From contig JAYXKI010000018.1 in the NCBI GenBank assembly GCA_037892935.1, positions 434,001 through 498,000 on the forward strand: a stretch of DNA of 64,000 nucleotides, given 5' to 3'. The position numbers and the translations under genes were made by a program. The notes beneath the pieces were generated by a model. That model saw nothing but the letters and a program-made list of their open reading frames with translations. It made no database searches and was not told the origin of the DNA. This document shows positions 13,950 through 51,641 of this stretch, one piece after another (position 1 is the stretch's first letter; each line of letters starts with the position of its first letter). The stretch is from Phlebopus portentosus. Lineage: Eukaryota > Basidiomycota > Agaricomycetes > Boletales > Boletinellaceae.

Positions 13950-14870
13950 CACGCTATGCGGTCAAGTATTGCTTCTCCCCTTCGACAAGACGTCGTCGTC
14001 CCTTCTCGCAATCTTGTCAGATCCATCATCCTCTCTGCGCTTTGTGCAGTCACAGTTGATCTCTTGAACCACGGGCGAAGAACGAACCCCAGGGGGCAAG
14101 ATACATCGCTTTTTTATATCGAAAACTTCACTCTAAGATGAGATCCTATTGTGAGGAACCCAACGGTCTTCGCCCAAGTACAATATTTCCTATCATGCAG
14201 CAAGCGTGCCTTTTAGGTTTTTATTTTCCTTTGCATGTGTGTGCTTGACATTGTGATAAGTGGACCTGTTCGGAGGCTGTAATGTACATTCTTTCTGATA
14301 GTATGTCGGACGATATCAGAGGGCCGACCCTGCTGTCCAGAAACACTTCTGACAGGTTTAATGCCAAATGGATGGACGGATGATAAACAGTGTCAAGGAC
14401 GTGTTCAAACCCGTGAACTCAACCTTTGCCCATGCATCGGCGACCTCTCCGAGAATGGTGTTTGTCGAAAATGTGTGGACAGCAAGCATCACATCACTCT
14501 GAGAGAGATGTTGTAAGCGTATCTGTCTCTTCCGCGCATACTCATACGTTCCGATTTTGTGATCAAAGAGGCAGATACTCATTGTCGCTTGGAACTAGGT
14601 TCAGATGATCGCACTACGTGGCTGTCTGCGATGGGATCCTTTTTCAGATGTTCCTCTCTGGAAGATCTATCGATGTTGGACGGCTTTGATGATAATTACG
14701 GGTTATAGAACATTGAGAGATTCGAGTAGTCTCGGTGCGTGAAGCTAGAAGAGCCTGAACGATAGGTCGACACTAACTTATGAAGGAACGGTCGGCAAAA
14801 AAGAAAGCCTAGCAGTTTTTGACTTATTCGTCAATAGGCTGAAAAGGCCCTCCAGTCTCCCTGCTGAGCT
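13950..14870 (-). pseudogene. zf-0: decayed relic of the tandem zinc-finger family
   Basis: Three stretches match family members in order. Around 14065-14105, GGGCGAAG and CCCCAGGG correspond to finger 3 (ARGTRD... and CPCG region). Around 14545-14582, CCGATTTTGTGATCAAAGA matches the intron-3 block read as MSICLFDHKIGTYEY, compared with MRICFFDHEIGTYEH in zf-8. Around 14755-14870, a CTCCAGTCTCC segment matches exon 2 and the exon 3 start (GAACGATAGGTCGACACT compared with zf-6). No continuous frame survives. It marks the left edge of the array. The segment left of 14358 is the least certain. Confidence 0.55.
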
Positions 14871-15464
14871 TGATGATTCATTCATTTGTAGGTTCATCGG
14901 AGCCGCTTAGCATCATGACCCTTTACATACCCCAGAAGTCCGGTTTGCTGTGTGCTCCTACTCCACAAGCGCGTTCAATCGCGTGTATGTGTAGAAGAAG
15001 CCGGGTTATGGATCGCTGTAACTTTTGGGTACTCTAGTGTGCTTTTGAGCTTTCTTCATGCCGAGTGTTGTCGGTGATTTAGGAGAGCCAGCACCAGGCA
15101 AAGCGTTAGAAATACCTATCGGCTTGGCTTAAATTCAAAGAAGGCAGGGATTCACAGAAGTTGTGTATTAGAAAAATGGGGAAGTGCCCTTTGTGGTTTG
15201 AGTGAAAGTTGGGATAATCAGGGCCGTCCAAGACCAAGTTGGTAAACGAAGATAACCACAAAGCCACGTCCTCCATTTCTTCTCCTGGAATTTTCGATTG
15301 AAATGAACTCGGATCAAGAACCTGTTTACATTTTCTCTTTCCCTACCTGGAAAAAGGGACCAAGCCTAATTCACCCTCTGTAACGCGGAATGAGAACTGG
15401 TGTACAGTCACTTTTATGACAAATTGGGCAAGTATGCTCCGATTCAGCTTTGTGTGTGTGTAAG
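14871..15464. other. spacer left of MITE-1b, nothing recognised
   Basis: No domain-bearing frame. It may contain decayed 5' flank of the zf-0 relic. Confidence 0.35.
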
Positions 15465-15466
15465 TA

Positions 15467-16089
15467 AGATACAGGAAGTATAAACTCGACTAGCCGTGAC
15501 GCGCGTCGCGAGACCCTGACTTACCTCATTCGGCACCACAACACAATACATTAATTCCACTTCTCACTTCATACAAATATACAATTGGACTCCATAGATG
15601 TCTTAAGGCTGAAATTAGCTACACATCTACAGTTTTAATTTTCAAAAATATTGCGGACTTGCTTCCCAATTATGGAAATAAGTTTTTTTGTGCCAAATGA
15701 CCCAGAATTTATTTTCCAGCCTTCTGGCGAAGTTTCGCAAAAATTTGGAATTCTCAACCCAAGATTTTTGCCACTTCCGGATATTACCGGATGACTAATT
15801 CACTCCATATATAGTAAGTTTAAGTGATTACAAAGTACAATTAAGTAAGCATTGCTTCCAATAGGTCTCAAGGGTGCTCCAATTGTACAACAAGTGTGTA
15901 AAATATGCAAATAAATCTATATTCACCCTTCTAAGCACCTCCACATGAAGTACAAGTGGTTTTCAAGTGTTTGGAAAATTCAACCCCGAGATTTTTGCCA
16001 TAGGGTCCTTCCTAATTGGGTTAGTACAGGGTCCGTCAGGGTCATCGGGTCACGCGTGACAGCTAGTCGAGTTTATACTTCTTGTATCT
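15467..16089. mobile_element. MITE-1b: 623-bp non-autonomous element with TA target duplication
   Basis: Ends read AGATACAGGAAGTATAAAC on the left and AGATACAAGAAGTATAAAC on the reverse complement of the right, both continuing TCGACTAGC. TA flanks lie at 15465-15466 and 16090-16091. It shares layout, terminal core GTATAAACYCGAC, subterminal GTCAGGGTCATC and length with MITE-1a, but the interiors have diverged, so the two insertions are not recent. No coding capacity. Confidence 0.85.
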
Positions 16090-16391
16090 TATGTCGGATG
16101 ACCAGGCAGATGGGGTAATAATTAAGACAAAGCAACACAGTTGATAGAAAATTTTACACGCGGAAATGCACCGAACGTAAAAACGGCAGCACAAACAGAA
16201 TACTGTAGCAGCAATCCATCCGGCTAAAAGACAGCGCAATGGAAAATGTTCACACCGGCAAGAATGCAAGCGGCAATGATGTAGACCGTGACGCAAACAC
16301 GAAAAAAGACGGAAACGGAAGATGATTGATCAAACACGTGACGAACTAGGTCGTGTCTTATGCAAGACTACGTAAGACCGAGCCTGAGCCT

Positions 16392-18101
16392 TTAAAACCG
16401 ACGTGCACGCTTGACAGTGACACCTGTGCTTGAGCCTTCGCCTCTATCGTCCTCTTCTTCCTCTGCAAGTCGACCCGTGCTCCTCAACCATCGCCGCTCT
16501 TCGTCGACGAGTCTTGAGTCGTCAACACTAATATACTCTGATAGGGTAGGGTCCGTCTTCCTCTTTTCTTGTAACTTCTTCTCGTGCCCGTCGCGTAAGT
16601 GACGGACAAACTGGTCCCTCGTTCCGCGAGCGAAGCACGTTCCGCAGGAACATCTATGCGCATTCACCCGAAGGTGAACTTCTGCGATGTGTCTGGGCAG
16701 ATTCATGTTCGACGACACGGTTGCCTTCCAAGTGCATCCCTTGCCCGTCTTGCTGTACGGGCATTCCAGAGGGTGCTCTCTTGTCTGTGCACCGATATGG
16801 TCGTGAACATGCGAACGAATGCCCCCTGCGTCAAAAGTTGCACGGCACTTTCCATCCTTCAGTGCGTCTTGTGGAGGGAAAGGGCATTCCCATTTCTCAG
16901 AACCGTTATGCGCTGGTGTAATACCGAACCGGTAGGCTATAAAGTCCGTGGATAAAGGGTTCGTATCTGTGTCATTCTTCATCCTTCTTGCGTCTGCGGC
17001 GTTTCCACGCTTGACGGTTGTCTTCAGAGTCTTGCGATGTCCAGTGTCCCAGGACTCGCTTGGGCTGTGTGCGTCGCTGCCGCGTTTTCTCTTCGTATGG
17101 CCTGAACATGGCTTTATTTCGAAGGCGGCTGAGATTTCTTTTTTATTCGGATGGACTGTGTGTCCCTTTGACTCCATTACGGAAGACTCTTTAGCTTCCG
17201 GCATAGAAATTAGACCCTCTGACGGAGGGTACACAGACTGAGCCACGATCAGCGTTCTAGACGGGATTATAAGTTCCAGATTGTGGGAAAGAAGGAACAA
17301 AAGCATTTACGTCGTAGCTTCCTGTGCGACCAGCCTGTCATCGTCACGGCATGAAGCAGTTTCTTTTACTTGCCCTTCATTCTTCCACAGAGATGAAATG
17401 TCGACGGCGTCGCTGGTCAACACTGGCTCGCCAGTGAATCGATCAAACTGGAAGCGATCATCCGTAGCGTAGAACGCATATCGTTCCAAAAGATCCATGA
17501 ATTCGTGTAAGCTTATGAAGGAATGTTCTTAAGCTCCGATTTCATGATTAAAGAAGCATATGCGCACCTTTGATGGGTAATGGTCTCCACCGACTGCACA
17601 AGACGGCCGTTTGGACTGGCGTTAGGTTTGTGGATCTTTTCGGCGGCATCTGTTTTTGTCGATGCATCTCTGCAGCGTGTACCTCCATGCAGTGAGACTT
17701 CACTGGTTTCACATGGTGGCTTGAAAAGCTTGAACGCTGAATCCAGTCTAGCCACGCGAAGGAAGTGGTCAGCAAAGGAAATCCTGAAAAATGAATGTCA
17801 TACCCATCCTCTACGGGCTGCAGGAGCCTCTCCAGTCTCTCCATGGATCCCTGGACTTCGTCAGAACTGTCTTCAGGGTCCCCGAACAATTCATCTTCAG
17901 GCATTTTCAGGAAGTCCAGTCCAGCGAACATTTCCTCCGAGGACGAGCTTTCAAGCGCGTTAGCACGCGTAAGAGGATAATATATATACAGGGATATGCT
18001 TACTTTGGTGTGCATTCAAGGTTTTTGTTGTGTTCGGGCGCGTTGGTGGTTTGGGGCGACGTGGGTGAGGGAGAACGTGAGTGACCGTCGGACTGAGACA
18101 T
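16392..18101 (-). CDS. zf-1: three-finger C2H2-like nuclear protein, array copy
   Basis: Exons 18004-18101, 17804-17947, 17568-17747, 17311-17511 and 16392-17256 give 495 residues; every intron is phase 2. Order of parts: Ser/Pro-rich start MSQSDGHSRSPSPTSPQ; acidic-hydrophobic block GLDFLKMPEDELFGDPED; conserved MDLLERYAFYATDDRFQFDRF; basic KRKRG; finger 1 (ECPFPPQDALKDGKC...HVHDH), finger 2 (ECPYSKTGKGC...HIAEVH) and finger 3 (CSCGTCFARGTRD...HLRDGH). It ends VKRARRF. This is the most divergent of the intact copies and the only one with an extra TV before KRARRF. A nuclear, nucleic-acid-binding role is inferred from the fingers and basic patches; target and process are unknown. Promoter motif pair at 18228-18293. 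Confidence 0.8.
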
Positions 18102-19281
18102 AGTGGTTTTCGCGCAAGGGGATCGGGTATTCACAGGACGCAGGTACTCAAATTCAAGTCAGGACACGGGAAGGGGCGCTCGGCGGGTACAGCACCGGGA
18201 GGAGGAGATACAAAGAGACGAGGAGAAACGCGTCGCGCTTTATTCACTGCTTATGTCATCTCAGCTTTGACAAACAAAGACAAACGCGTCGCGTCTTTCT
18301 TGGACTGTCCATGTCCCGCAACAGCATTCTTTGATGGCGAACTCGCCGTAGATTGAATAATGGCAGATTGAAAACCGCAGATGTCCCCGCATTGCACGTT
18401 GCAACGAAAGGACTTTAAAAGAAGAAAGAATAATGTGCCAATAATTCACCTTGCTTACGTTGTTCGCAAATCACCAAGCCACGGCACATGGCTGTATCAT
18501 CTGCTAGGCCTAAATATTTCATGCCTAAATGAATTATTATTATCACCGATTCCTTGTTCGACGAGCGCAAAATAATGCTACCCGTGATTAGCGATACTGC
18601 GTACATTTGCTCCAGTTTGTCATTCCTACATGGCTTACACTTCGAGAGGACATGACATGCGTCGGTACTGTACCGTGGCCCAAATGATGAAGCCGACTTC
18701 ATACCCATATATAATTCATTTCGACACGAGCTCCCGTCCGTTTTTTGAACATCGTGCGTACACCGACCTTGTACAGAAATGTACTCCTGTAGGTTTTTTG
18801 GAGATCAAGTTGTGTCGGAGCGAACTCGGCCAAGTTCATTTAGATCATCTACAAACCTATAAATCCGTCGACTATTTGCTTTTGCTGAGCTTCCTTCCGG
18901 TGGATTAACTTTATGATGAACAGCCTAAATATGCCCAGATCTAACTACAATGCTACAGAATAGACGAGTATAGTACAAGCCACGAATAAAAAAGCACTTT
19001 AGAATGGAAACATTCCAACTAGATATCGACAGCAAAAACAGATAGACAAATGCGAATGTCCGAATAATAGAAATTGAAAGTCAACACGGAGGAATGTCAG
19101 CATGAGAAAGAATACGAGCAAGAACACATAATACAAATGGCAAACGGAAAGAAATGGCGTAGAATGCGCAGACAGATAAAGAATGCAATATGAAAAAGGA
19201 AGACGCAAGATTGATCGGAGAGATGATCGATCGAACACGTGAGGAGATGTGTCTTACGCAAGACAACGTGGAACTGAGCCT
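18102..19281. repeat. array spacer zf-2 / zf-1 (promoter of zf-1, 3' flank of zf-2)
   Basis: Noncoding part of the tandem unit. Recognisable blocks shared with other spacers include GCCAATAATT near 18434, CACGGCACATGG near 18480, GTACAGAAATGTACTCCTG near 18773, and the AGACGAGTATAGTACAAG block near 18962. It ends in the AT-rich 3' flank of zf-2. Confidence 0.7.
18228..18293 (-). promoter_or_regulatory. paired CGCGACGCG-type motif upstream of zf-1
   Basis: Two ACGCGTCGCG sites (18228-18237 and about 18284-18293) lie 127 and about 185 bp upstream of the zf-1 ATG, separated by a conserved CTGCTTATGTCAT and TTTGACAAACA segment. The same arrangement recurs before every full-length family member, which argues for a cis-element. 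Function is inferred from conservation only; here both sites have the same orientation. Confidence 0.5.
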
Positions 19282-20966
19282 TTAAAACCGACGTGCACGC
19301 TTGACACCTCTACTTGAGCCTTCGCCTCTGTTATCCCCTTCTTCCTCTGCAAGTTGACCCGTGTTCCTTGACCATTGTGCTTCTTCCTCGACGAGCTTTC
19401 GGTCGTCTACGTCCACAAATTCCGGCACTGTCGGATCCGTCCTTCTCTTCACCGCCAGATTTTTCCTGTGTCCGTCGCGTAAGTGACGGACGAATTGGTC
19501 TCTCGAACCTCGGGCGAAGTGGGTTCCGCAGGGACACTTATACGCATTCGACTTTAGGTGGACATCGACTATATGTCTGGGCAAGCCTGTGTTCGACCCA
19601 GTTGCCTTCCATGAGCACTCTTCCCGCACGGTGCGGAATGGACACTCTAGAGAGCCATGAGGGTGTTTTCCCGTGTATGCATTTATATGGTCAATAAGAT
19701 GGGAGCGAATAGCCGTGGCGTTGAAGTTCGCATGGCATTTCTCGCCTGGCAGCGCATCTTGCGCGGGAAAAGGGCATTCCCATCTCTCAGCGACGCTGCG
19801 TACGGGCGTTATCCCGAATCGATAAGTTATGAACTCTGTCGATAGTGAGTTCTTAACTGTGATCTTCTTTACCCCTTTTGCATTTGCATTATTCCCGCTC
19901 CTGGAAGGATTTTTAAGAGGTATGTGACTGCCGTTGTCATCCAATCTTCTCGAGCTGTGTACGTGACTGCCCCGTTTTCTCTTCACCCGACTCGGACGTG
20001 GACCACTTGGTACAAAGGCGGCGGTCTGCTCTTCCTGATTCGGCTGGACTGTACATTGCTTCCTTTGCGTTGTCGGGAAGATTCTGTCCTTCGGCGTAGA
20101 GAGCTGTCCTTCTGACGGAGGGCTCGTAGTCTCGCCCATAGTCAAAACTCTGGACAGGTATCAGTGACGAATGATAGAGATGAAGGAAGACAAGCACATA
20201 CGGCGTTTCTTCCCTCTCGACCAGATCGCCCTCTTCATAATGGTGAGCTGGGACTTCTCCCGTCACCAACGACTCATGGGCGAGGTAGCTAGTCCGCACT
20301 GGCTCGCCGATGAACTGGTCAAAGTCAAAACGGGGATCACTTGCATAGAATGCGTATTGGTGCAAGAGATCCATGAAATCTTGGAGGCTTATGAAAGAAT
20401 CTTCATGAGTTCCGATTTCATGATCATTGGAGCGCGAACGCACCTTAATCGGGAAATAGTTTCCACTGATTGCGCTAGACGGTCCTTTAAAACACGGATA
20501 ATTGTTTGCGATGCTTCCTTGGCAGGTTCGGATAATATCGAGGTGCTGTCGTTGTATGTATCTGCAGCAGTCTCTGTTGGTAGCTCGGAAAGCTTCAACA
20601 ATGAATCTGGTCTGAGCATGGAAAAGAGTAGTCAGCGAAAAGAAAGTCAGACATGTGAATGTCATACCCATCTTCCACGCGACAGAGAAGGCTCTCCAGC
20701 CTCTCCAGGGAGCCTTGGATTTCATCAGGTGTATCGTCAGGGTTACCAAACAATTCATCATCGCGCATCCCCAGAAAGTCCAATTCGGCGGGCATCTCTG
20801 CCGATGACGCGCTTTCAATCGCGTTAGTACGCGTAGGATGAGATGTTGTACACACTGGACAAACTTACTTTGGTGTGGCCCATAACTTTCCTTTATGATC
20901 AGGCGTGGAGGTGGTTATGGACAATGTGGAGGAGGGAGATTGTGCGAGGCTATTGGACTGGGACAT
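19282..20966 (-). CDS. zf-2: three-finger C2H2-like nuclear protein, array copy
   Basis: Exons 20869-20966, 20668-20811, 20444-20611, 20202-20387 and 19282-20149 give 487 residues; all introns are phase 2. Intron 1 carries the perfect branch site TACTAAC. Acidic block ELDFLGMRDDELFGNPDD; middle block FMDLLHQYAFYASDPRFDFDQF; basic KRKR at 255-258. Finger 1 ligands are Cys324, Cys337, His349, His353; finger 2 Cys368, Cys377, His391, His396; finger 3 Cys404, Cys406, His421, His426. It ends VKRARRF. The spacings C-x12-C-x11-H-x3-H, C-x8-C-x13-H-x4-H and C-x1-C-x14-H-x4-H depart from the classic C-x2-4-C-x12-H-x3-5-H. zf-2 and zf-3 are close to identical in exons and flanks, so they are a recent duplication. 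Likely a nuclear regulator (inference). Confidence 0.82.
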
Positions 20967-22377: not shown

Positions 22378-24068
22378 TTAAAACCGACGTGCACGCTTGA
22401 CACCTCTACTTGAGCCTTCGCCTCTATTATCCCCTTCTTCCTCTGCAAGTTGACCCGTGTTTCTTAACCATTGCGCTTCTTCCTCGACGAGCTTTCGGTC
22501 GTCTACGTCCACAAATTCCGGCACTGTCGGATCCGTCCTTCTCTTCACCGCCAGATTTTTCCTGTGTCCGTCGCGTAAGTGACGGACGAATTGGTCTCTC
22601 GAACCTCGGGCGAAGTGGGTTCCGCAGGGACACTTATACGCATTCGACTTCAGGTGGACATCGGCTATATGTCTGGGCAAGCCTGTGTTCGACCCAGTTG
22701 CCTTCCATGAGCACTCTTCCCGCACGGTGCGGAATGGACACTCGAGAGTGCCGTGGGGGTGTTTTCCCGTGTATGCATTAATATGGTCAATAAGATGGGA
22801 GCGAATAGCCGTGGCGTTGAAGTTCGCATGGCATTTTCCGCCTGGCAGCGCATCTTGCGCGGGAAAAGGGCATTCCCATCTCTCAGCGACGCTGCGTACG
22901 GGCGTTATCCCGAATCGATAAGTTATGAACTCTGTCGATAGTGAGTTCTTAACTGTGACCTTCTTTACCCCTTTTGCATTTGCATTATTCCCGCTCCTGG
23001 AATGATTTTTAAGAGGTATGTGACTGCCGTTGTCATCCAATCTTCTCGAGCTGTGTACGTGATTGCCCCGTTTTCTCTTCATCCAACTCGGACGCGGACC
23101 ACTTGGTACAAAGGCAGCGGTCTGCTCTTCCCGGTCCCGCTGCACCGTGTTCCTTTGACTTGTCGGGAAGTTTCCTTTTGGTGTAAAGAGCTGTCCCTCT
23201 GACGGAGGGCTCGTAGTCTCACCCATAGTCAAAGCCCTGGATGGATATCAGTGACAAATGTTAGAGATGAAGGAAGACAAGCACATACGGTGTTTCTTCC
23301 CGCCTAACCAGATCGTCCTCACCATAGTGAGGAGCTGGGGCTTCTCCCGTCACCGGCGATTCATGGGAGGCGTAGCTGTTCCGCACTGGCTCGCCGATGA
23401 ACTGGTCAAAGTCAAAACGGGGATCACTTGCATAGGATGCGTATTGGTGCAAGAGATCCATGAAATCCTGGACGCTTATGAAATAATCTTCATGAGTTCC
23501 GATTTCATGATCATTGGAGCGCGAACGCACCTTAATCGGGAAATAGTTTCCACTGATTGCGCTAGACGGTCCTTTAAAATACGGGCTATTGTTTGCGGCG
23601 CCTCCTTGGCAGGTTCCGATAACCTCGAGGCGCTGTCGTTGTACGTATCAACTTGCAATGGAATTGTAGCAGCCTCTGATGGTAGCGCGGAAAGCTTCAA
23701 CAATGAATCTGGTCTGAGCATGGAAAAGAGTGGTCAGCAAAAAGAAAGTCAGACAAGTGAATGTCATACCCATCTTCCACGCGACAGAGAAGGCTCTCCA
23801 GCCTCTCCAGGGATCCTTGGATTTCGTCAGGTGTATCGTCAGGGTTACCAAACAATTCATCATCGCGCATCCCCAGAAAGTCCAATTCGGCGGGCATCTC
23901 TGCCGATGACGCGCTTTCAATCGCGTTAATACGCGTAGGATGATGTGATGTATACACTGGACAAACTTACTTTGGTGTGGCCCATAACTTTCCTTTATGA
24001 TCAGGCGTGGAGGTGGTTATGGACAATGTGGAGGAGGGAGATTGTGCGAGGCTATTGGACTGGGACAT
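22378..24068 (-). CDS. zf-3: three-finger C2H2-like nuclear protein, array copy
   Basis: Exons 23971-24068, 23770-23913, 23531-23713, 23289-23474 and 22378-23236 give 489 residues; all introns are phase 2. All twelve zinc ligands of the three fingers are present, as are the acidic block ELDFLGMRDDELFGNPDD and the KRARRF end. It differs from zf-2 mainly by a longer exon 3 (a TIPLQVD insertion) and a shorter start of exon 5. The finger region is nearly identical to zf-2 and zf-4, which points to recent duplication or gene conversion. Function unknown; nuclear nucleic-acid binding inferred. Confidence 0.82.
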
Positions 24069-25464: not shown

Positions 25465-27156
25465 TTAAAACCGACGTGCACGCTTGACACCTCTACTTGA
25501 GCCTTCGCCTCTATTATCCTCTTTTTCCTCTGCAAGTTGACCCGTGTTCCTTGACCATTGCGCTTCTTCCTCGACGAGCTTTCGGTCGTCTACGTCCACA
25601 AATTCCGGCACTGTCGGATCCGTCCTTCTCTTCACCGCCAGATTTTTCCTGTGTCCGTCGCGTAAGTGACGGACGAATTGGTCTCTCGAACCTCGGGCGA
25701 AGTGGGTTCCGCAGGGACACTTATACGCATTCGACTTTAGGTGGACATCGACTATGTGTCTGGGCAAGCCTGTGTTCGACCCAGTTGCCTTCCACGAGCA
25801 CTCTTCCCCCATAGTGCGGAATGGACACTCTAGAGAGCCGTGAGGGTGTTTTCCCGTGTATGCATTTATATGGTCAATAAGATGGGAGCGAATGGCCGTG
25901 GCGTTGAAGTTCGCATGGCATTTTTCGCCTGGCAGCGCATCTTGCGCGGGCATTCCCATCTCTCAGCGCCGCTGCGTACGGGTGTAATCCCGAATCGATA
26001 AGTTATGAACTCTGTCGATAGTGAGTTCGTAACTGTGACCTTCTTCGTTCCTTTTGAGTTTGCATTGTTCCTGCGCCTGGGATGATTCTTATGATGTGTG
26101 TAATTGCCGTTGCTATTCGATTTGCTCGAGTTGTATGCGTGGCTGTCAGATTTTCTCTTCATCCGACTCGGACGTGGAGTACTGGGCCCAGAGGCGGTGG
26201 TCTGCTCTTTCTGGTTCGGCTGTACCGTGCATTTCTTCCTTTGCATTGTCGAGAAGATTCCGTCCTTCGGCATAGAGAGTTGTCCCTCTGACGGAGGACT
26301 CATAGTCTCACCCATAGTCAAAGCCCTGGACAGATATCAGTGACAAATGTCAGAGATGAAGGAGACAAGCACATACGGCGTTTCTTCCCGCCTAACCAGA
26401 TCGTCCTCACCATAGTGAGGAGCTGGGGCTTCTCCCGTCACCGGTGATTCATGGGAGGCGTAGCTGTTCCGTACTGGCTCGCCGATGAACTGATCAAAGT
26501 CGAAACGGGGATCACTTGCATAGGATGCGTATTGGTGCAAGAGATCCATGAAGTCTTGGAGGCTTATGAAAGAATCTTCATGAGTTCCGATTTCATGATC
26601 ATAGGAGCGCGAACGTACCTTAATCGGGAAATAGTTTCCACCGATTGCGCTAGACGGTCCTTTAAAACATGGGTAATTGTTTGCGATGCCTCTTTGGCAG
26701 GTGCCGATAATTTCGAGACGCTGTCGTTGTGCGTATCAATTCGCGATGAAACTTCAGCAGTCTCTGATGGTAGCGCGGAAAGCTTCAACAATGAATCTGG
26801 TCTGAGCATGGAAAAGAGTGGTCAGCGAAAAGAAAGTCAGACAAGTGAATGTCATACCCATCTTCCACGGGCCAGAGAAGGCTCTCCAGCCTCTCCAGGG
26901 ATCCCTGGATTTCATCAGGTGTATCGTCAGGGCTACCAAACAATTCGTCATCGCGCATCCCCAGAAAGTCCAATTCGGCGGGCATCTCTGCCGATGACGC
27001 GCTTTCAATCGCGTTAATACGCGTAGGATGATGTGATGTATACACTGGACAAACTTACTTTGGTGTGGCCCATAACTTTCCTTTCTGATCAGGCGTGGAG
27101 GTGGTTATGGACGATGTGGAGGAGGGAGATTGTGCGAGGCTCTTGAACTGGGACAT
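25465..27156 (-). pseudogene. zf-4: array copy broken by a 7-bp deletion in finger 1
   Basis: The five-exon structure, splice sites and start (MSQFKSLAQSPSS) are kept and exons 1-4 are open. In exon 5, zf-2 and zf-3 have CCC followed by TTTTCCC at this place, but zf-4 lacks those seven bases at about 25949, between two CCC triplets. This removes the residues after the first zinc Cys of finger 1 and shifts the frame: upstream reads WECPRKMRCQ, and the correct frame resumes only as MPAQDALPGEKC. The downstream fingers and KRARRF end are otherwise intact, so the lesion is young. The first part of exon 5 (GQLSMPKDGIFSTMQ to NANSKGTKKVTV) differs from zf-2 and zf-3 far more than the finger part does. 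The distal part may still be made from an internal start. Confidence 0.82.
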
Positions 27157-33325: not shown

Positions 33326-33509
33326 CACTTAGATCGTGGCGAGAGACCGATGAGCTAAGCGATCGGCACTGATCGTCGCTCGGACCCTGGCTGCCGAGCG
33401 GCATCGGCACCCACCCTGGCTGCCGCGGCCCCACACAGCCGCTCCCAATTTGGGGGCCCCTCTCGGTCACACTCACTCAATCAATGCACATGTGTGGCTG
33501 CATGTGCAT

Positions 33510-33533
33510 ACAGCCAGCCAGCCAGCCAGCCAC
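33510..33533. repeat. CAGC tetranucleotide microsatellite
   Basis: Five to six tandem CAGC units inside the left end of the insertion, followed by T- and A-rich runs (33534-33585). Confidence 0.8.
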
Positions 33534-33927
33534 CATTTTTTTCTTCAATTCTTTCCCCCTCATCCGAAAAAAAAAAAAAAAACATTTTTGCTCAGTAAAC
33601 AATACACTATTCTGAATGCATTCCTTTGCTCCTTCATGCCTCTCTTTGCTGGCTCTAAATCTAATCTTTCTGGCTTGCACAACTTGAAAACTAAGGACAA
33701 ATCTGAAGAAAGTCTCACTGGATGGATTCTTGGGCTATGGGGGCAGCATCTCATCATTGCTCTCTCATGATTCTGTTGAGAATGCACTCCTGGATGCAGC
33801 CAGATGGTATTTACAAGTATTACAAGCCTACAGGACTTGGAGCTGCCGGTCCTTCTCAAGGACCGGCAGGTCGGCTAGGTTTTGATGCTGATGGGCTCAT
33901 TTCGTAAGTTCTCTTCCAAATTCCCAC

Positions 33928-33990
33928 CCATTAGCCGGTCTCTCGACAAAAATCTGAGCACTTAGCTATTGTCGAGAGACCGGCTAATGG
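33928..33990. repeat. 63-bp perfect-arm palindrome
   Basis: Arms of about 22 bp (CCATTAGCCGGTCTCTCGAC and its reverse complement) around a loop of about 19 bp holding AATCTGAGCACTTAG. First of two near-identical foldback units. Confidence 0.85.
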
Positions 33991-34009
33991 CTGGGCAATC
34001 CGCGGATTG

Positions 34010-34074
34010 GGCCTTAGCCGGTCTCTCGACAAAAATCTAAGCACTTGGTGAATGTCGAGAGACCGGCTAAGGCC
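34010..34074. repeat. 65-bp perfect-arm palindrome, second foldback unit
   Basis: Arms GGCCTTAGCCGGTCTCTCGA and reverse complement, loop with AATCTAAGCACTTGG. Same unit as 33928-33990, only 19 bp away. In each, the bases just outside the shared TTAGCC core (CCA or GGCC) are also palindromic. Confidence 0.85.
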
Positions 34075-34196
34075 AAGTCCCGTGCTCCCCTTCCCCTCCT
34101 TCTTTCTTATCTAAGTGCTTGCCTTCAGCCTCCGCCATTCGCTCAGCGCTCGTCGCGTCGTCGCCCGTCGCTCCCTACCTCCATGTTCACACTCAA

Positions 34197-37100
34197 CATC
34201 GAACATGCACCCTTCAGGGAAGTGCTACGCATCGGGCAGGGAAGACAGGCTCGTACGTGTGCATCATTTCGACGACGAGAGCCATTTCAAAGCAAAGCCT
34301 TACGAAGGAAAAGGATGCTCTACAGAAATGGCAGCTTGATGATCTTGGCCTGCAAATCAAACGTCTCCTCAACTGGTTCGATTACTGGACGCGACGCTGC
34401 CTTCGGATGAAGATATGCAGGTTATTCAACCAGCATCGAGCGTGGAAGGCGTCACTACGAATAACCTCGTCCTCTATAAGCCGATCCCAGAGCCACGGCA
34501 GACGGACAAGGCTAGTTTCATCCGGGAGGTTTTGGCAAGAGTGAAAAAAGCCGAGCAGGAGTACAAGGCGCGAACGGAGAACGAGCCGAACGAAGCTATT
34601 CGTGAGGCGGACGAGGCAACCACGCCGTCCGAAGCTCAACTTGAGAGTACCCAAGCCGGCCACCAGGCGACGATTCGGGCTTATATCAAGGAGAGAGACA
34701 CGCTGAAGACTATGATTTTCTCGTTATGAATGGGGCGGAGCACTTCCAGCTGCTACTTCTACTCAACAAGCGGGCTCATCGTCTCCGCAGGTGAACGTAC
34801 GTGTTCGCGAGCCAACTGAATTACAGAAGGAGCCCGAGGAATTCCGTTCCGAGCTAACTTTGAGGCATACCGAAAAGAAATGGGCGTTGGTACTATCAAG
34901 CTTCGCGAAGAAGTTCTCCAATACCAGCGTGAATCCAGCCAACTGGGTGCGGCACTCGCAAAGGCTAACGCGAGGATTGAATTCCTCAATGGTGAGTTTA
35001 TTCTCTTTGTGTCCTCAACGGGTCAAGCTCACGATTTGGGCTAGAGCGACATCGCATGGCTCAGGAACAGTACATCATGCACGAGCGAGAAGCTCAAAAT
35101 CTGCAGAAACGGAACCAACAATTGCACGATCAATACACACGTCTGGATATCGCATGCAACCATGCTGCCGAGGAATTAGCCTCTGCTAATACTCAGATCG
35201 AGCGATTGTGGAACGAATGCTCCAATCTTCGTGCAGAAAAAAAGATCTGGGAGGTGCGTAGCCGTTAATTTACTCGTCTTGTGATTCATATTAACTCGAG
35301 ATGTAGAATGTGCAGACTCGACTAATTGATGAGAACAAGATTCTGTCTCTGGAGCGGTCTCGTATGGCGGACTTGATTGCCAACGTGCAGAAAATGCACA
35401 ATGACATTGACAAGGCGAACGGCAGCGATAGGCGAAGATTCGAGTCTCAAATCCATAATCTGGAGGGCCAAGCGTAAGTGTTCCCCATATCAAGTTTACT
35501 TTAGCGTAATAACATTCAATTTTTGATGCTTTAGTCAGGATCTTCGAACTCAGCTATCCCGCGAGCGCGACACAGTCCGACAAATTTCATTGCAGAAGGA
35601 TATCGAAGTTCAGGAACTGCGAACTAAGGTTGATCGCTCCGTAAGTTAGATACTTCTGAAAATGTCTCCTACGTTATTGAATATTATGGCAGGTGGAGAA
35701 CTTGTCAAAGGCCCGAGAATCTCTTGTGGAGGCTGATACAAGTCGGAAACACCTACAAGAACGAGTGGATGAGCTTGTCAAGCAGGTGCAGATGAATGAA
35801 GAGAAGATTGCCGTTTACGAGCGACGTACTTCCTCGGTCACTGTCACGACTGGTGACGCTTCACGTCCGCAGGCGGGCGGAGACAGCTCGGAGCAAGAAC
35901 TCAAGGTTGAAGTCGCCGAACTCCGGTAAGTTTGACCGCATTTTTGTATTAGTTGGTTATTGACTTTCTTGATACCACGTAGGGCCGCATTGAAGGCTGC
36001 CGAAGTTGATCTTGCCGCTGCCCGCAGTCATGTGCAGCAATTCCAGGAAATCAGCCAGGCCAGTGAAGCTGCTCTGCAATCACTGTCTGCCACGCATGAC
36101 GAGTATAAGGCATCCACCGAAGCTCAGATCGCTAAAGTCGAGGTACAGGAGTTTATTCGTCCTCTGCATCATATACTGATCTTCATCATATCTAGGCTGA
36201 ACGGAAGGCACTTGAGGAGAAGATATCATCTCTGCAGGATGAGATCACTCGGCTTAACACGAAGAACGGCGAGCTCCAGCAAACGCTCGAAAAGGAGCGC
36301 GAGACATACACTCAGGACAAGAAGATGCTGGAGGACACGATTGTTGATATTACTAACGCTGAGATGACCTCGCGCACTGATCAAACATCTCGCGAGAATG
36401 AGATACGAGAGCAGATGGAGCGTGCCAAGGTGGGTCTATTATGATGTCAAGAGCATCAGTGAACTTACCTGCTGTATAAAGGCCGCTGAAGATAAATATT
36501 CTCGCGAAATCGTCGCTCATGCCGAGTCGATCAAGGTCGTGGACGCTTTCAAGAAGGAGCTCAGCGAGGCACGGGCTTCGTTACGCGAGAAGACGGTTCA
36601 AGCCGAGACTGCTCAGGCGAACTTGACTGCATCGGAAGCTAGTTGGAACCAGCAGCGAGAAGTTCTTAACAAGGAGATTACAGATCTCACAGCTCGGTAA
36701 GCATAGCTGTTCTGCTCACTTCCTCACAGATCCCCCCTAAGCAAGAATATAGTTGCAAAGACCTTGCGGCACAAAATAGCCTGCTTCACCAGCACCTGGA
36801 GTCTGTCAGTTCACAGGCCTCTCGTATACGTCAAGCTGCGGATTCAAACATGACCGTACCAGAGTCGGGTGACGGTGATGATGTGGATGGCCGTGTGGTG
36901 GAGCTGCGTTCCGTGGTAGCCTATCTGCGCAAGGAGAAGGAAATCGTTGACCTTCAACTAGAGCTCTTCAAGCAGGAGAATGCACGACAAAAGGCACAGA
37001 TCGACCATCTCAGCCAGGCTCTTGACGAAACAAGGACGGCACTCTCAAATGTTCGTCCGCACCGTTCTGCTTATCCTTACAATGCATTCTAACTCTTTCA

Positions 37101-38453
37101 AAAGGAGCGTGAAGATGCAGCGAAGGCTGTCAGTAATTCTGCTGAGCATGCCGAACTGTTGGACAGGATTAACCAACTCAACATTCTCCGTGAAAGCAAT
37201 GCTACGCTTCGCGCAGAGAGTGAAGCGCAAGCTCGCAAAGCACGCCAGCTTGAGACGACACTCAATCACCTCCAATCAGAACTGAATCCGCTTAAAGAAG
37301 AAGCGAAGACGCTCCGTGCTGAGCTTGATGCCAAGAATGCTCAGATTCAACGGCTTGAAGACGAGAGCCGTCAATGGAAGGAACGGAATGCTCAGCTTCT
37401 TACGAAGGCAAGTTAACTGATCCGTATTTATAGTATTTATACTTGAAGGCTTATTGACAACGACTAGTACGATCGTATTGACCCGAATGACGTCCAAGCT
37501 CTCAAGGACGAGATCGAAGACTTACAGATCGATCTCCGTAAGGCTGAGGAAGAGAAGGCGGCTTACACTGCCGAGAAGGATGCTTAGACTAAACTTGTAT
37601 GTTTGGCTCACTTTTGAAACAGACGCTTCGCTGACCTGACCAACTGACCTTACAGCTTGAGGACATGCAGGCTACACTCGCCGACTTCCGAATGAAATAC
37701 TCGTCTCTAGGGCAAGAATCTCACAACTGACTTGGGCAACTGAATCATCAGATTTCCAAGTTGAACGAGGCTATCGCTGAGCTGCGAAAGCAAGTCAAGG
37801 ACCTGTCCGACGAAAAGGAACGCCTCGCCAGTCAGGCCGCAGTGGCGACATCATCGGATTCTCTGAAGACTCAACTGGCGGCTGCAGTCCAGGAGAAAGA
37901 GACGTCAGCGAAGTTACTAGCCGATGAAGGCTGCCGCTGATCATGAGGCTGCTTTGGTGAGTGTACTGAGTTTTGACTACCAGCAATAATTTCTCTAGAT
38001 TTTGTCTAGTCCGCTCTCCGTGAGGAGAGGGACAAGTTACTCGCGGAGAAATACAAGCAGGAGCAAAAGCAGGCCGTGACCGCCGCTACTGAAAAACTGC
38101 GGGCTGAACTGCAGAATCCGGGTGCGGATGCAGCGGAGATCGCCGCTCGACATGCAAAGTGAACTCCGTGTGTTGGAAGCAAGACTCACCGCTAAGCATG
38201 AGGAGGAACTGAAGGCTGCGATTGAAAGGACACGGAAGGAGGCTAAGTAAGAAGACGCGAAGGCAGGTGCTGCTGCTTCTTTAGGTACCACGCAGGACAT
38301 GATCTCGAGCAAGGAGCTTGAGCAGGCCCTTAAGGCAGCGACCGAACGCAGCACGATGGAGTCTGCGACGAAGCTGAAATGGAAGGATGGTATGCTTCAG
38401 AAAGCTCTGGCGGGCGTGAAGCGAAGCATCTCAAGGCGCAAATCAAACGGTAA
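34197..38453 (+). pseudogene. captured fragment of nuclear-pore nucleoprotein TPR/MLP1
   Basis: A series of exon-like coiled-coil blocks separated by retained introns (for example 35254-35307, 35475-35534, 36428-36482). Recognisable TPR/MLP1 segments: GVTTNNLVLYKPIPE, ASANTQIERLWNECSNLRAE, ANVQKMHNDIDKANGSDRRR, then the TPR_MLP1 domain with AAEDKYSREIVAHAESIKVV, DLAAQNSLLHQHLESVSS, VVAYLRKEKEIVDLQLELFK and QENARQKAQIDHLSQALDET. The fragment starts well inside a TPR protein and ends without the usual C-terminal region. Lesions include TAG after YTAEKDA (37585), TGA after GQESHN (37730), a frameshift near 37925, TGA near 38160 and TAA near 38248. Retained introns mean a DNA-level capture, not a retrocopy. 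In the cell TPR forms the nuclear basket; this copy is not functional. Confidence 0.8.
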
Positions 38454-38744
38454 GGCATGGTGGGGGATATTTACGTGCAATGCTGTTCGATTTTGGGAAT
38501 GTGAAATGAAATACATTTGTCTTAATTTTATTTATTTATTTATTACAGTATAAAAATACATACCCCGTGAAAAAAAATAATGGAGAGCCCGAAGATGGAA
38601 AGGGAAACCTCCATGGAGAGCGTGCCCGTCACAGAGGTCGACGGCACGCCCTCTGAGGGGCTCAGGAGGGCTTGCTAAGCGGGGCCGAGGCGGCTTCACC
38701 GTAAGGGGCAGGTGGACCCTTCGCTTACGGTAAGCGGGCTCGGC

Positions 38745-38768
38745 GTCTCTCGACGATCGTCGAGAGAC
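38745..38768. repeat. 24-bp perfect palindrome near right end of insertion
   Basis: GTCTCTCGACGA joined directly to its reverse complement with no loop. It is the same GTCTCTCGAC motif as in the foldback units at 33928-34074, about 50 bp inside the right border. Confidence 0.85.
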
Positions 38769-38817
38769 CGATTACATCAGCGACCCCCACCCAGGCCCGG
38801 TCTCTCGACAAAACAAA

Positions 38818-40033: not shown

Positions 40034-41766
40034 TCAAAACCGACGCGCACGCTTGACACCGGTACTTGAACCTTCGCCTCTATAATCCTCTTCTTCTTCA
40101 GCATGTCCACCCATGCTCCTCAACCATCGCTTTTCCTCGTCGACGAGCCTTGGGTCATCAACGCTGACGTAGTCGGGTACGGTGGGGTCCGTCCTCCTTT
40201 TCACAGCCAAATTCCTTTCGTGCCCATCACGCAAGTGACGAACGAATTGGTCGCGCGTTCCGCGAGAGAAGGACGTACCGCAAGGGCAGGTGTACGCGCT
40301 CACCTGCAGGTTCACCTCCGTTACATGACGTGGTAAGCCTGTATTGGGCCCGACGGTTTTCAATGATCCCCTATCTTCTGCCCACATACACCGTTCTTCC
40401 GTCAAGCGTCTGGGACATTCGAGCTTGCCATCGGGATGTTGAGCCAAATAGGCATTCACATGGTCAGCAATGTGGGCACAAATGGTCCTGGTGTCAAAGG
40501 ATGTCAGGCATGCTCCATTCGGCAGAGCATCGTGCGGCGGGAATGGGCAGGACCACCGGTGTGAAGCACAATGCACGGGGTTAAGACCATATCGATAGAT
40601 TATAAACCCTGTTGACAAGGGGTTCGAGCCCGTAATCTTTGCCTTCCCTTTTATGTTCCTGGTGCTGCCGCGTCCAACAGCCGTTCCATTAGAGTTGCAG
40701 CCACCATGGCTGCTCGAAGACCTTGGGTCGTAAATATGGTTGTCGCGTTTTCTTTTTCTTGAACGGAGACTACTTGGCTCAGGGTCGGTAGCAATTTGTG
40801 TCTGGTCCGTCTGTGCCGTGTGTCGCTCGAAATGCACCATAGAAGGGCCGCCATCTGTCGGCGTAGAAATTAGCCCTTCTGACGGAGGGCTCGCGGATAA
40901 AGCCACAGTCAATGCTCTAGACACAATTATTGTCAAGGGATTATGGGACGAAGAGGAAAGGGTGCATACGGTGTCTCTTCGCTCTCAACCGATGCGCTGT
41001 TATCGGAACGTGAGGCAGAATCTTTGACTAGATGTTCATCCGTCTTCCCACCCAATGATTCGCCTACTGTGTAGCTGGTTATCACTGGCTCACCAGTGAA
41101 CCTATCAAATTCGAAGCGTTCATCCGTGATGTAGAACGCATATCGTTTCGATAGATCCATGAAGTCGTTTAAACTTATGGAGGGAATGCTCATAAGTTAC
41201 GATTTCATGATCAAAGAAATATATGCACACCTTAGGCTGGCAATAGTCTCTGCCGACTGTACTAACTGACCATCAGAAAAGAAGCTCGTTTTTAATGAGT
41301 CCTCTTCGGCGGGGACTGATGGTTCTGAGGCACTGTGGCAGGTAGCGTCGCATAGTGGATCTATGATCGTTTCGTTTCGTGGCTCAGACAGCTTGAGCGA
41401 TACTTCGAATCTGATTGTAAGGAAAGAGTAGTTAGCAAAAAGCAAATCAGACAAGTGATTGTCGTACCCATCTTCTATGGGCTGGAGAAGGCTTTCTAGC
41501 CTCTCCAGGGATCCCAGGGTTTCTTCAGCAGCATCATTGGTGGTGTCGAACAATTCCTCGTCGGACATGTCGAGAAAGTCCAGCCCGGAACTTGTCTCTG
41601 CCGGAAATGCGCTTTCAGACGCGTCAGTACGCGTACGAGTCTCAGTTATATGCACCGGATGTACTTACTTTGGTGTTGCTTTGGAATCTCCTTTATCTTC
41701 AGGCGCGTCAGTGGTTTGGGATGACGAGGATGAAGGAGAGTACGAACGACTGTAGGATTGGGGCAT
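40034..41766 (-). CDS. zf-7: C2H2-like nuclear protein, array copy with altered finger 2
   Basis: Exons 41669-41766, 41468-41611, 41231-41410, 40970-41173 and 40034-40916 give 502 residues; all introns are phase 2. Start MPQSYSRSYSPSSSSSQ; acidic block GLDFLDMSDEELFDTTND; middle FMDLSKRYAFYITDERFEFDRF; KRKRD basic patch; ends VKRARRF. Finger 1 (SCPFPPHDALPNGAC...HIADH) and finger 3 (CPCGTSFSRGTRD...HLRDGH) are intact. Finger 2 has the longer loop of this subgroup, C-x8-C-x20-H, and its last His is replaced by Asn (HVTEVNLQ, where zf-6 and zf-8 have HVTEVHL), so one zinc ligand is missing. The stop is TGA where most copies use TAA. May be partly functional. Confidence 0.8.
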
Positions 41767-43144: not shown

Positions 43145-44883
43145 TTAAGACCGACGTGCACGCTTTATACCGGTACTTGAGCCTTCGCCTCCATCATCCT
43201 CTTCTTTTTCAGCGTGCCCACCCATACTCCGCGACCATTGCTTTTCTTCTTCGACAAGTTTTGGGTCGTCTATGTCCACAAAATCGGGTGTTGTCGGATC
43301 CGTCTTCCTCTTTGCCTCCAGGTTTTTTCTGTGCCCATCACGCAAGTGACGAACGAATTGGTCGCGCGTCCCGCGAGAGAAAGACGTACCACAAGGGCAG
43401 GTGTATGCGTTCACCCGCAAGTGCACCTCCGTTACGTGGCGCGGTAGACCCGTATTGGGTCCGACGGTTCTCAACGACTCCCTATCTTCCGCCCACATGC
43501 AACGTTCGCTCGTGAGGCGTCTTGGGCATTCGAGTTTCCCGTCGGGGCGTTCAGCCAAATAGGCATCCACATGGTCAGCAATGTGGGAACGAATGGTCCC
43601 GGCGTCAAAGGATGTCAGACAGGCTCCATTCGGCAGAGTATCATGCGGTGGGAATGGGCAGGACCACCGGTGTGAGGGGCTATGAACAGGCTCAAGGCCG
43701 AACCGATAAATCATAAAATCGGTTGACAACGGGTTCGAGCCAGTGATCTTCGCCTTTCTTTTTCTGTTTGCTGTGTTACCTCGTTTGACAGCCTTCCCGA
43801 GAGATTTGCAAGCGCCATCGTTGCCTGAGTACGTTGGACTATTCACTTGGCCATCACGTTTCCTTTTAGTAGAGCTCAAACGAGCACCACTTGATCCGAT
43901 GGTGACTGTGTCATCTTTCTGCTTTGGCTGAGCTATGCGTAGCTCAGGCTGCATCACAGAAGCGTTTTCATCTTTCGGTGCAGAAATTAGCTCCTCTGAC
44001 GGAGGGCTCATGGATAAGGCCGCGGTCAATGTTCTAGGCGTAATCATTGTTAACAGGTCGCGGAAAGGAAGGTGATAAAGCACGTACGGTGTGTCTTCTC
44101 TCTCAGCCAACGGGTCATCATCAGAGCTTGATGCAGCGTCTTCGGCTGGATGTTCATCCGTCTTTCCTTCCAACGATTTATCCACCGTGTAACTGGTCAT
44201 CACTGGTTCACCAGTGAACCTATCAAATTCGAAGCGTTCATCCGTGATGTAGAACGCATATTTTCTCAGAAGATCCATGAAATTGTTGATACTTATGGAG
44301 GAATGCTCATAAGTTCCGATTTCATGATCAAAGAAACATATGCGCACCTTAGGCTGGCAATAGTTTCTGCCGACTGTACTAGATGGCCATTCGAAGAGAA
44401 GCTCGTTTTCGACGATTCACCTTCGGCAGGGACTGATGGTCCTGGGGTACTATGACAGGCAGTGTCGCATAGTGGGTCTGTAGTAGTCTCAGTTGGTGGC
44501 TCGAACAGTTTGAGCGATACGTCAAATCTGAATGCGGGAAAGGAATGATCAGCAAAAAGCAAATCAGGCAAACGATCGTCGTACCCATCTTCTACGGGCT
44601 GAAGGAGGCTTTCCAGCCTCTCTAGGGATCCGTGGATCTCATCAGCAGTATCGTTGGTGATGTTGAATAATTCGTCATTAGACATGTTGAGAAAGTCCAG
44701 GCTTGAGCTTGTCTCTGCCCAGAATACGCTTTCAGACGCGTCAGTACGCGTACGAGTCTCAGTTATATGCACCGGATGTGCTTACTTTGGTGTTGCTTTG
44801 GAATCTCCTTTATCTTCAGGCGCGTCAGTGGTTTGGGATGACGAGGATGAAGGAGAGTACGAACGACTGTGGGATTGGGACAT
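43145..44883 (-). CDS. zf-8: three-finger C2H2-like nuclear protein, array copy
   Basis: Exons 44786-44883, 44585-44728, 44348-44527, 44088-44291 and 43145-44033 give 504 residues; all introns are phase 2. Start MSQSHSRSYSPSSSSSQ; acidic block SLDFLNMSNDELFNITND; middle FMDLLRKYAFYITDERFEFDRF; KRKRD patch. Fingers: SCPFPPHDTLPNGAC...HIADH, ECPRRLTSERC...HVTEVH and CPCGTSFSRGTRD...HLRDGH, all ligands present. It ends IKRARRS, the only intact copy whose last residue is not Phe. Exons 1-4 and the fingers match zf-7, but the segment after finger 3 (EAKRKTDPTTPDFVDIDD) matches zf-5, so the gene is a mosaic. Role inferred as nuclear nucleic-acid binding. Confidence 0.82.
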
Positions 44884-45728
44884 AGTGGCTTAGATTCAAA
44901 GGGGACAGACGTCTACAGGAGCCACGTATTCCGAATACAGTCAAAGAAGGAGACGGATTGTTTTGTGGATAAAGCAGTGGGAGGAGAGAATACAAAGAGA
45001 CGAGGAGGAACGCGACGCGTTTTATTCGTTTGCTTATGGCATCTCTGTTTGGATAAACACGGACAAACGCGTCGCCCTTCACGTGCCTCGCGTGTTCTGA
45101 TACTCTTCCTTGAACGTTGGCGCTCATGTACCATATTCTAGGAGTTTGATAGATACGTTGTCTGTGCACAAATGTTCACTCCAATGAGTGCTACTGGTTT
45201 GAACAACCCGGATTAAGAATCGTGCATACCGCAGCAGATAAAAACCAGCATCAAATCGTAAGTAAGTCCGAGACTCTCCTAAGGAATGAACCCTCTATCG
45301 AAATATCTCTTTGGATATAAAATTGGCTGGAGCGATTTTGCAAAATGGCAGATATAAGATACAAAAACTTCGAACAACTATTCCGAAAGTCATTCCGGTA
45401 CCAAACACATTCACCAAGAACAACATGAATTTAACGATGAAATTAGCATCGAGAAGTGTTACTACAGGCATGAAGGTCGTAGCAGTATGGACGGCGATCA
45501 AGGAAATTAATAGTGATAGAAGAGTAGGTGTCTCCCGGTATCGCTAGCGCTACAGAGTCTCTGTGAACTGCCGAACACGGTGCAATTTCGGGTGGGAGAA
45601 AGCGGTGTGAGGAACGAAGAGGGCTTGGGCATTGCAGTTGGTACAATCAACAGGCAGAAAGGGAAGGGCGATGGCATAAGAATGATCACTCGACACACGG
45701 TTTGCACGTTTCTAACAGATACTGGTAT
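44884..45728. repeat. promoter and decayed spacer right of zf-8
   Basis: The first 250 bp match the other zf promoters. Beyond about 45170 no family similarity or gene is seen. Confidence 0.55.
45009..45075 (-). promoter_or_regulatory. paired CGCGACGCG-type motif upstream of zf-8
   Basis: ACGCGACGCG at 45010 and ACGCGTCGCC near 45067 (last base changed), about 127 and 185 bp upstream of the ATG. Confidence 0.48.
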
Positions 45729-45739
45729 TCAGAAGTGGC

Positions 45740-46280
45740 GCTGGCGCTTGACACCCTTGCTCGATCCCTCCTCCCTTTCATCTTCATTGGAGATACGATC
45801 CTTATTCTGGTGTCGTAGCCACCGCCTCTCCTCTTCCACGAGCCGATTGTAATCGTCGAAGAAACTCGGTAGCTTCGGATTTTCCCGCCGGCGTTCCGCG
45901 AGACTATTTTGAACAGTGCTCATTGCGTAAATGCCGTATCAGCAGATTCCGCTTGTTGCGCGCTACGGTACTCCCGCAAGGACATCTCATCTCCGTGTAT
46001 TTGACGTGAGAATTAAAGATATGGCGAGAAAGGCCGGTATTTTATTCTTACCTGACTGAATCTCTTCTCTCCTTTTCAGCGTCCCCACACAGGGCACTCA
46101 ATACCTCCCGACCCGGATGCCGGCCATTACAAGCGTTAATATGTTCTGTGACAAGCTTCCTAACCACTATTGCATCCAATGTAATTCGGTATCTGTTTCC
46201 TTTAAGGCTTCTCGGGAGGGAAGGGACAAGGCCAGACAGCGTTACAGGCTAATGTCGTTTTGATCCCAAAGCGAAAGCAC
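45740..46280 (-). pseudogene. zf-9: distant, decayed family relic (finger region)
   Basis: On the minus strand, pieces of the finger domain occur in family order but in different frames. A PCPFPPEK stretch near 46230 corresponds to finger 1 start; LVTEHINA near 46160 to the finger 1 helix; IECPVWG near 46105 to finger 2; LSRHIFNSHVKYTEMRCPCG then RHLRNEH (46040-45930) to fingers 2-3. The C-terminal segment LPSFFDDYNRLVEEERRWLR with EGSSKGVKRQRHF corresponds to the family tail. Stops and at least one frameshift separate them. It is much more divergent than zf-1 to zf-8, so it is an old member bounding the array on the right. Confidence 0.7.

Positions 46281-51641
<5,361 letters not shown>

Follow-up and report, generated by a model that had tools for sequence, protein, structure and literature searches.

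An apparently genus-limited tandem array of atypical three-finger zinc-finger genes in Sanghuangporus

We describe a tandem array of genes coding for an atypical three-finger zinc-finger protein, located in a window of 64,000 nucleotides (positions 434001-498000 of contig C18) of a fungal genome assembled in 23 contigs (38.4 Mb). The array occupies positions 13853-46283 of the window on the minus strand and consists of eight copies of one five-exon gene, called here zf1 to zf8, plus two edge relics. The reading that we favour, with somewhat better than even confidence, is that its genes code for nuclear regulators that bind DNA and are regulated together, members of a young family that evolves by tandem duplication and gene conversion and whose array branch, within the range of our searches, is confined to a single genus. 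The genus is Sanghuangporus, the wood-decay mushrooms known medicinally as “sanghuang.” Each intact gene would code for a nuclear DNA-binding transcriptional regulator, and the array would belong, as one of several branches, to a zinc-finger superfamily, with tandem birth-and-death going on within the genus. In the window it lies between a phosphatase-like gene near 10.6–11.3 kb and an amylase gene near 49.7 kb.

Gene copies, relics and relatives

The gene models were obtained by splice-aware mapping of the proteins of relatives, extended afterwards to ATG and stop codons. All eight stops predicted by the initial annotation of this DNA (16392, 19282, 22378, 25465, 28535, 31673, 40034, and 43145) turned out to be correct. 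The five-exon structure that it proposed was found in seven of the eight copies, with four GT-AG introns (51–58 nt) at the same places, and fails in zf6, which is without exon 1. The stop-to-stop distances along the array were 2890, 3096, 3087, 3070, 3138, 8361, and 3111 bp; the 8361-bp gap includes an interspersed repeat of ca. 5493 bp, and after subtracting it ca. 2868 bp remain. Six copies are open from ATG to stop, with products of 487–504 amino acids (aa). These are zf1 (16392..18101, with exons at 18101-18004, 17947-17804, 17747-17568, 17511-17311, and 17256-16392, and Sv_7453 as its orthologue in S. vaninii), zf7 (40034..41766, where the second His of finger 2 is replaced by Asn) and four more with five exons each, namely zf2 (19282..20966), zf3 (22378..24068; 97% identical to S. 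sanghuang ACEPAF_5680), zf5 (28535..30224; 100%, rounded, to A7U60_g739 over the aligned columns) and zf8 (43145..44883; 97% to S. sanghuang ACEPAF_5685). The other two are pseudogenes. In zf4 (25465..27156) finger 1 has lost 7 nt near 25943; its S. sanghuang counterpart, ACEPAF_5681, is 96% identical and annotated at 492 aa. The second one, zf6 (31673..33321), has three frameshifts and its 5′ part is absent at a transposable element.

An nhmmer profile of the eight units recovered relics at both edges of the array and gave no match in 20 block-shuffled windows. The left relic lies in two pieces (15195-14534 and 14480-13853, minus strand; E 2.9e-37 and 8e-20) and the right one (45728..46283, minus strand; E 1.5e-10, with protein matches and frame translation in agreement) retains fingers and tail with internal stops, ending in GSSKGVKRQRHF. 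As both are real, the figure of ten copies or relics given initially is right; the “near-identical pairs” announced with it were not found, the closest pair (zf2/zf3) having 92% protein identity. Between the left relic and zf1 there is also a short inverted repeat (15465-15520 vs. 16035-16091, 88%), and 2473-2564 is similar to 15989-16080 (84%); these short repeats may correspond to a small mobile element. That the array is an assembly artefact is unlikely, since S. sanghuang and S. vaninii, in records produced by a different study, have the family in runs of adjacent locus tags (5680-5685 in the first and 7453-7459 in the second, both with gaps).

When the last-exon frame of zf2 was used as query, the protein matches at E ≤ 10 (14 of 14) all belonged to Sanghuangporus. 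The searches recovered the array branch from just three species of the genus and from A7U60, with species-specific duplicates, so that within the range searched the expectation of a lineage-restricted family varying in copy number between species holds; the losses in particular species are read from one search of annotated proteins. The tag ACEPAF corresponds in the match tables to S. sanghuang, ACEPAG to S. baumii and ACEPAH to S. vaninii, while ACEPAI is the tag of S. weigelae among the four Sanghuangporus genomes described in the available text of Cho et al. (2025; PMC12001456). In S. weigelae the array branch was not found by one search with one query among candidates of 161–511 aa in 90% clusters, which can be taken as a lead. 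The window genome is most likely that of S. sanghuang or of a very close relative, judging from the proteins nearest to the array copies, which are ACEPAF_5680 and ACEPAF_5685 (97%) and, with a rounded 100% over the columns aligned, A7U60_g739. The S. baumii ACEPAG proteins are only 74–78% identical to the nearest array copy. A7U60_g739 (P0018) is filed as S. baumii and is practically identical to zf5; this strain label may be wrong, because the ACEPAG proteins of S. baumii are far from the array copies.

Besides the array (clade A), we found a sister family (clade B) in three clusters on contig C15 (324–337, 376–381, and 703–727 kb; 12 loci after joining pieces) and two single-copy relatives, one at C18:533 kb, ca. 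53 kb from the array (clade C), and another at C4:1224 kb (clade D) with one match each in S. vaninii, S. baumii, S. weigelae, and A7U60. These relatives are new in this analysis, and so, with respect to the initial annotation, are the conversion-like tracts, the common promoter and the transposable element at zf6 described below; the array is thus real and part of something larger than first described. Nine loci of the sister family have an open frame of 310–390 aa spanning fingers and tail, and the spacing in the third cluster is ca. 4.3–4.6 kb. Two of its sequences (C15:333468 and C15:380128), 46 kb apart and in opposite orientation, are 97% identical. Among the matches listed, from a set of 7990 candidates, S. 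vaninii, S. weigelae, and S. baumii also have the sister family on near-consecutive tag runs. According to the alignments, the three fingers and an acidic-GSSxG-basic tail are common to the array, sister and single-gene branches. The superfamily may extend outside the genus, since a related protein (P0040) on a 2.9-kb contig is, among the matches listed, 43% identical to the sister family.

Duplication, probable exchange and average constraint

Turnover was followed in a tree of 22 proteins (from which ACEPAF_5683, an odd gene model, was excluded). In this tree zf1 groups with Sv_7453, zf7 with Sv_7458 and zf4 with Ss_5681; zf8 joins Ss_5685 and then Sv_7459 and Sb_9184, zf5 joins A7U60_g739 and then two S. 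vaninii copies, zf3 joins Ss_5680 and then zf2, and three S. baumii copies form a group of their own. The birth-and-death evolution proposed in the initial annotation is therefore supported, with lineage-specific duplicates among three species, two pseudogenes and two relics. Identity is also patchy along the genes. The pair zf6-zf7 has 93% identity in the fingers and 91% in the tail, with only 68–72% in exons 2–4; zf7-zf8 reach 98% over exon 1 and intron 1 but drop to 64% over the initial portion of exon 5, and the tail of zf8 is nearest to that of zf5 (83%). In a GENECONV-like test over 28 pairs (uncorrected) three of them, zf2-zf4, zf6-zf7, and zf7-zf8, had the lowest p that the permutations allow (0.0005), followed by zf3-zf4 (p = 0.002), zf6-zf8 (p = 0.0045), and zf2-zf3 (p = 0.02), values that have to be read knowing that the test takes no account of uneven constraint along the gene, a point that weighs against the reading favoured here. 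The tree, the patchy identity and the conversion-like tracts, taken together, indicate that copies are born, patched and lost. Birth would take place by unequal crossing-over, exchange of segments by gene conversion, and death by indels and by transposon insertion.

The death of zf6 illustrates the last point. The interspersed repeat between zf6 and zf7 (33322..38814) has four other copies at 93–99% identity, one of them over the same full span (97%, at C8:1844145-1849585), besides partial copies and more diverged pieces, in a search that listed 56 pieces with 40 of 129 candidates scored. The repeat bears GTCTCTCGAC-type inverted motifs. It has a TPR/MLP1-like coiled-coil reading, with a PF07926 match on several copies, but the reading as a housekeeping TPR/MLP1 gene at 33.3–38.8 kb was rejected because the genome search revealed a many-copy repeat. 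About eight bases of exon 1 are retained in zf6 and, past the element, homology restarts only ca. 326–336 bases upstream of the expected ATG, so that the core promoter has been lost along with the remainder of this exon.

The ratio of nonsynonymous to synonymous substitution rates (dN/dS), calculated as pairwise averages over the six open copies, was 0.18–0.34 overall and below 1 in all 15 pairs. Within the gene it was 0.13–0.20 for the finger block (10 of 15 pairs, dS being saturated in the other five), 0.20–0.42 for the N-terminal part and 0.10–0.31 for the tail, with fingers lower than the N-terminal part in 10 of the 10 pairs where both were defined. The dS values were 0.12 for zf2/zf3, 0.61 for zf7/zf8 and more than 1.1 for the other 13 pairs. 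On average, then, the coding sequence of the array is under purifying selection, and these averages reject positive selection as a whole-gene pattern. They also bear on a rather unlikely alternative, in which the array would be a passive product of unequal crossing-over, with redundant, nearly neutral copies (or copies retained for dosage) drifting in number. The death of two of the eight copies and of both edges, the loss of a ligand in zf7 and the homogenisation of copies by conversion-like tracts would all be expected from such drift. However, subgroups separated by dS > 1 remain open and constrained, one-to-one orthologues of zf1, zf7, and zf8 have been kept in S. vaninii and the core promoter is constrained as well.

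Protein plan and finger contact positions

The predicted protein would have an N-terminal segment, encoded by exon 2, that is acidic, rich in character of an aromatic kind and similar to an activation domain, followed by a disordered middle with a KRKR stretch, and would end with the three atypical zinc fingers and a tail first acidic and then basic. It is probably nuclear, as had been suggested. The KRARRF-like tail described earlier was present in all six open copies (KRARRF in four, KRTRRF and KRARRS in the others). The 12 presumed zinc ligands, two Cys and two His per finger, are conserved across the aligned relatives, with the exception of the His to Asn change in finger 2 of zf7 and a His to Arg change in finger 1 of zf6 and Sv_7458. 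In classical C2H2 fingers the spacing is C-X2-4-C-X12-H-X3-5-H. The array proteins have a similar ligand set, but neither this spacing nor a match to the classical profile (PF00096). The non-canonical spacing reported before was confirmed, zf1 having C-X12-C, C-X8-C, and C-X1-C; finger 2 of the sister family has C-X2-C. PF00096 was absent from six array frames at E ≤ 5 and from four full array-branch proteins and five relatives at E ≤ 1, and a genome-wide search with it placed 0 of 37 matches on contig C18. The description of an unrecognised three-finger family is thus borne out, no scanned protein having passed a Pfam cut-off, and we found no publication on it in a search of titles and abstracts.

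Comparison with known families gave partial likenesses. The C2H2 finger of fungal SWI5 produced a sequence-profile match (E 9e-4), although only a short one (profile positions 419–457). In the GLI/Zic type (CWCH2) fingers 1 and 2 each have a Trp within their Cys pair, according to the available text of PMC2837044; there is none between C37 and C50 or between C78 and C87 of zf1. The Basidiomycota C2H2 families, as presented in the accessible part of a survey of 30 of these fungi (PMC12295980), are likewise fungal C2H2 regulators with some tandem copies. That survey relied on PF00096, its main text, as far as available, contains neither “Sanghuang” nor “Hymenochaet,” and it probably missed the array family, because PF00096 gives 0 of 37 matches on C18.

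Some observations weigh against a family of DNA-binding regulators. For the scanned array proteins no Pfam family reached its cut-off, and a Foldseek comparison with the PDB gave nothing at E 0.001. The AlphaFold2 model of a 200-aa finger fragment (35 relatives in the alignment) was predicted to be finger-like, with only two of five models above 70 in predicted local distance difference test (pLDDT), and the full-length model (alignment of 14 close relatives) was poor (pLDDT 34). The acidic window, by thresholds set in this analysis, was missed by zf5 and three others of the 22 proteins and also by four of six relatives from other branches. Finally, finger 2 changed as expected among paralogues (see below) and the unusual finger spacings make binding to RNA or protein possible. 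If the fingers bound RNA or protein instead of DNA, the proteins would not be transcription factors, an explanation that we regard as quite improbable given that the best structural alignment of the finger fragment, weak as it is, was to a DNA-bound GLI structure and that the acidic activation-like segment is present.

If the array proteins are DNA-binding regulators, a shared target preference would be provided by finger 3, which changes little, and by finger 2, which does so too in most copies, and the N-terminal arm and perhaps finger 1 would be the parts most divergent between copies. In seven orthologue pairs (zf8 and zf3 each used twice) finger 1 had 11 contact-position changes vs. 2.9 expected, finger 2 had one and finger 3 none. 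With the S. vaninii pairs only, finger 1 had 8 changes vs. 1.9 expected (p = 0.001), and without zf7 it had 5 vs. 1.4 (p = 0.013); with positions -1, 3, and 6 only, p was 0.04–0.27. In six paralogue pairs of the window there were 17 changes vs. 8.7 expected in finger 1 (p = 0.03), 4 vs. 8.8 in finger 3 and 10 vs. 8.9 in finger 2, mainly due to zf1 and to position -1, so that the low change of finger 2 holds for orthologues and not for paralogues. The most variable finger column was position +2 of finger 1, changed in five of the seven orthologue pairs. There was no excess with all three fingers pooled (p = 0.19 and p = 0.55). In the sister family there was none either, with p = 0.41 for finger 1 and p = 0.11 for finger 3 over 29 rows, two of which (L049 and L053) represent a single locus. 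The finger-1 excess has to be considered a post-hoc lead, since the idea came from prior inspection of these same data.

This lead would fit a different scenario, in which the proteins are repressors or recognition factors engaged in an arms race (with mobile elements or pathogens, or in allorecognition) and the fingers track changing targets. The restriction of the tandem array to one lineage, its pseudogenes and the copies peculiar to single species, the finger-1 changes, with position +2 as the most variable column, and a transposable element within the array all go in that direction. Still, we consider it unlikely. The dN/dS is well below 1 in all pairs and lower in the fingers, so that the link from this pattern to genetic conflict, made in the initial annotation, was not supported; the contact positions of fingers 2 and 3 are hardly altered between orthologues; the finger-1 signal, besides being post hoc, is weaker without zf7 or with positions -1, 3, and 6, and disappears on pooling and in the sister family; and the single insertion at zf6 is uninformative on targeting.

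Core promoter and intron 3

Conservation extends upstream of the genes. The core promoter of zf1 (18191..18316, minus strand; about -215 to -90) has equivalents upstream of zf2, zf3, zf4, zf5, zf7, and zf8, with 75–84% identity between subgroups vs. 49% at four-fold sites. In two sets of subgroup representatives the values were 83–84% at -160 to -90 and 75–78% at -215 to -160; they were 38–61% farther upstream, 56–69% closer to the ATG and 60% in intron 4. The block contains GCGACGCG- and CGCGTCGCG-like boxes, with an exact ACGCGT in six of the seven promoters. In the sister-family and single-gene loci inspected, TTTGTCAAAG and CGCGTCGCG were not found; GCGACGCG and ACGCGT were present in some of them. 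As the copies share ancestry, the number of CGCG boxes is not independent evidence and we have used only the conservation, which may be due in part to gene conversion. Such a common promoter would turn the copies on jointly. The ACGCGT sequence also recurs in intron 1 of zf1, zf2, zf3, zf4, zf7, and zf8 (e.g., at 17965, 20829, 41619, and 44736). It is the MCB site of yeast Mbp1/MBF in the available text of PMC4862756, and G1/S control of the array genes through it would be a guess by analogy.

Intron 3 (56 nt in zf1, 17512..17567, minus strand) is unusually conserved between subgroups. Its mean identity among four subgroup representatives was 82% (intron 4, 60%), higher than in the adjoining exons, mostly 53–72% between subgroups with introns included. 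For six of the eight copies a transcript retaining it is predicted to be read through for ca. 18 extra codons, until a TAA is reached that overlaps with the 3′ splice site; zf7 stops sooner and zf6 is broken. By position in the retained frame, the differences were 27/90 at third positions vs. 15/90 and 17/84 at the others, a weak signal. An RNA hairpin is an unlikely reason for the conservation because folding was ordinary (z 0.75, -0.02, -0.24, and -1.30). A joint scheme, in which finger 3 and most of finger 2 are fixed on one target class, finger 1 is retuned per copy or species, retention of intron 3 yields an acidic isoform without fingers by which the family is damped, and both sister array families turn over in parallel, seems to us very improbable as a whole.

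The best-known cases of rapid turnover in tandemly arranged zinc-finger regulators are those of animals. Like the vertebrate KRAB/poly-zinc-finger clusters, the array has tandem and lineage-specific copies, pseudogenes and finger proteins; unlike them, it has three atypical fingers under average purifying selection, and its Pfam scan matches include no KRAB domain. In the vertebrate poly-zinc-finger expansions the contact positions are positively selected, with no such signal in two insects, according to the available text of PMC2604467. The array can be said to evolve somewhat like the animal clusters without being a member of those families. It is a compact, young case, and as several species of this mushroom genus have been sequenced, what sustains the turnover of such a family could be tested here, the single-copy relatives and the other array family serving as internal controls. 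A further implication is that expanded families may be overlooked when fungal regulators are surveyed with PF00096.

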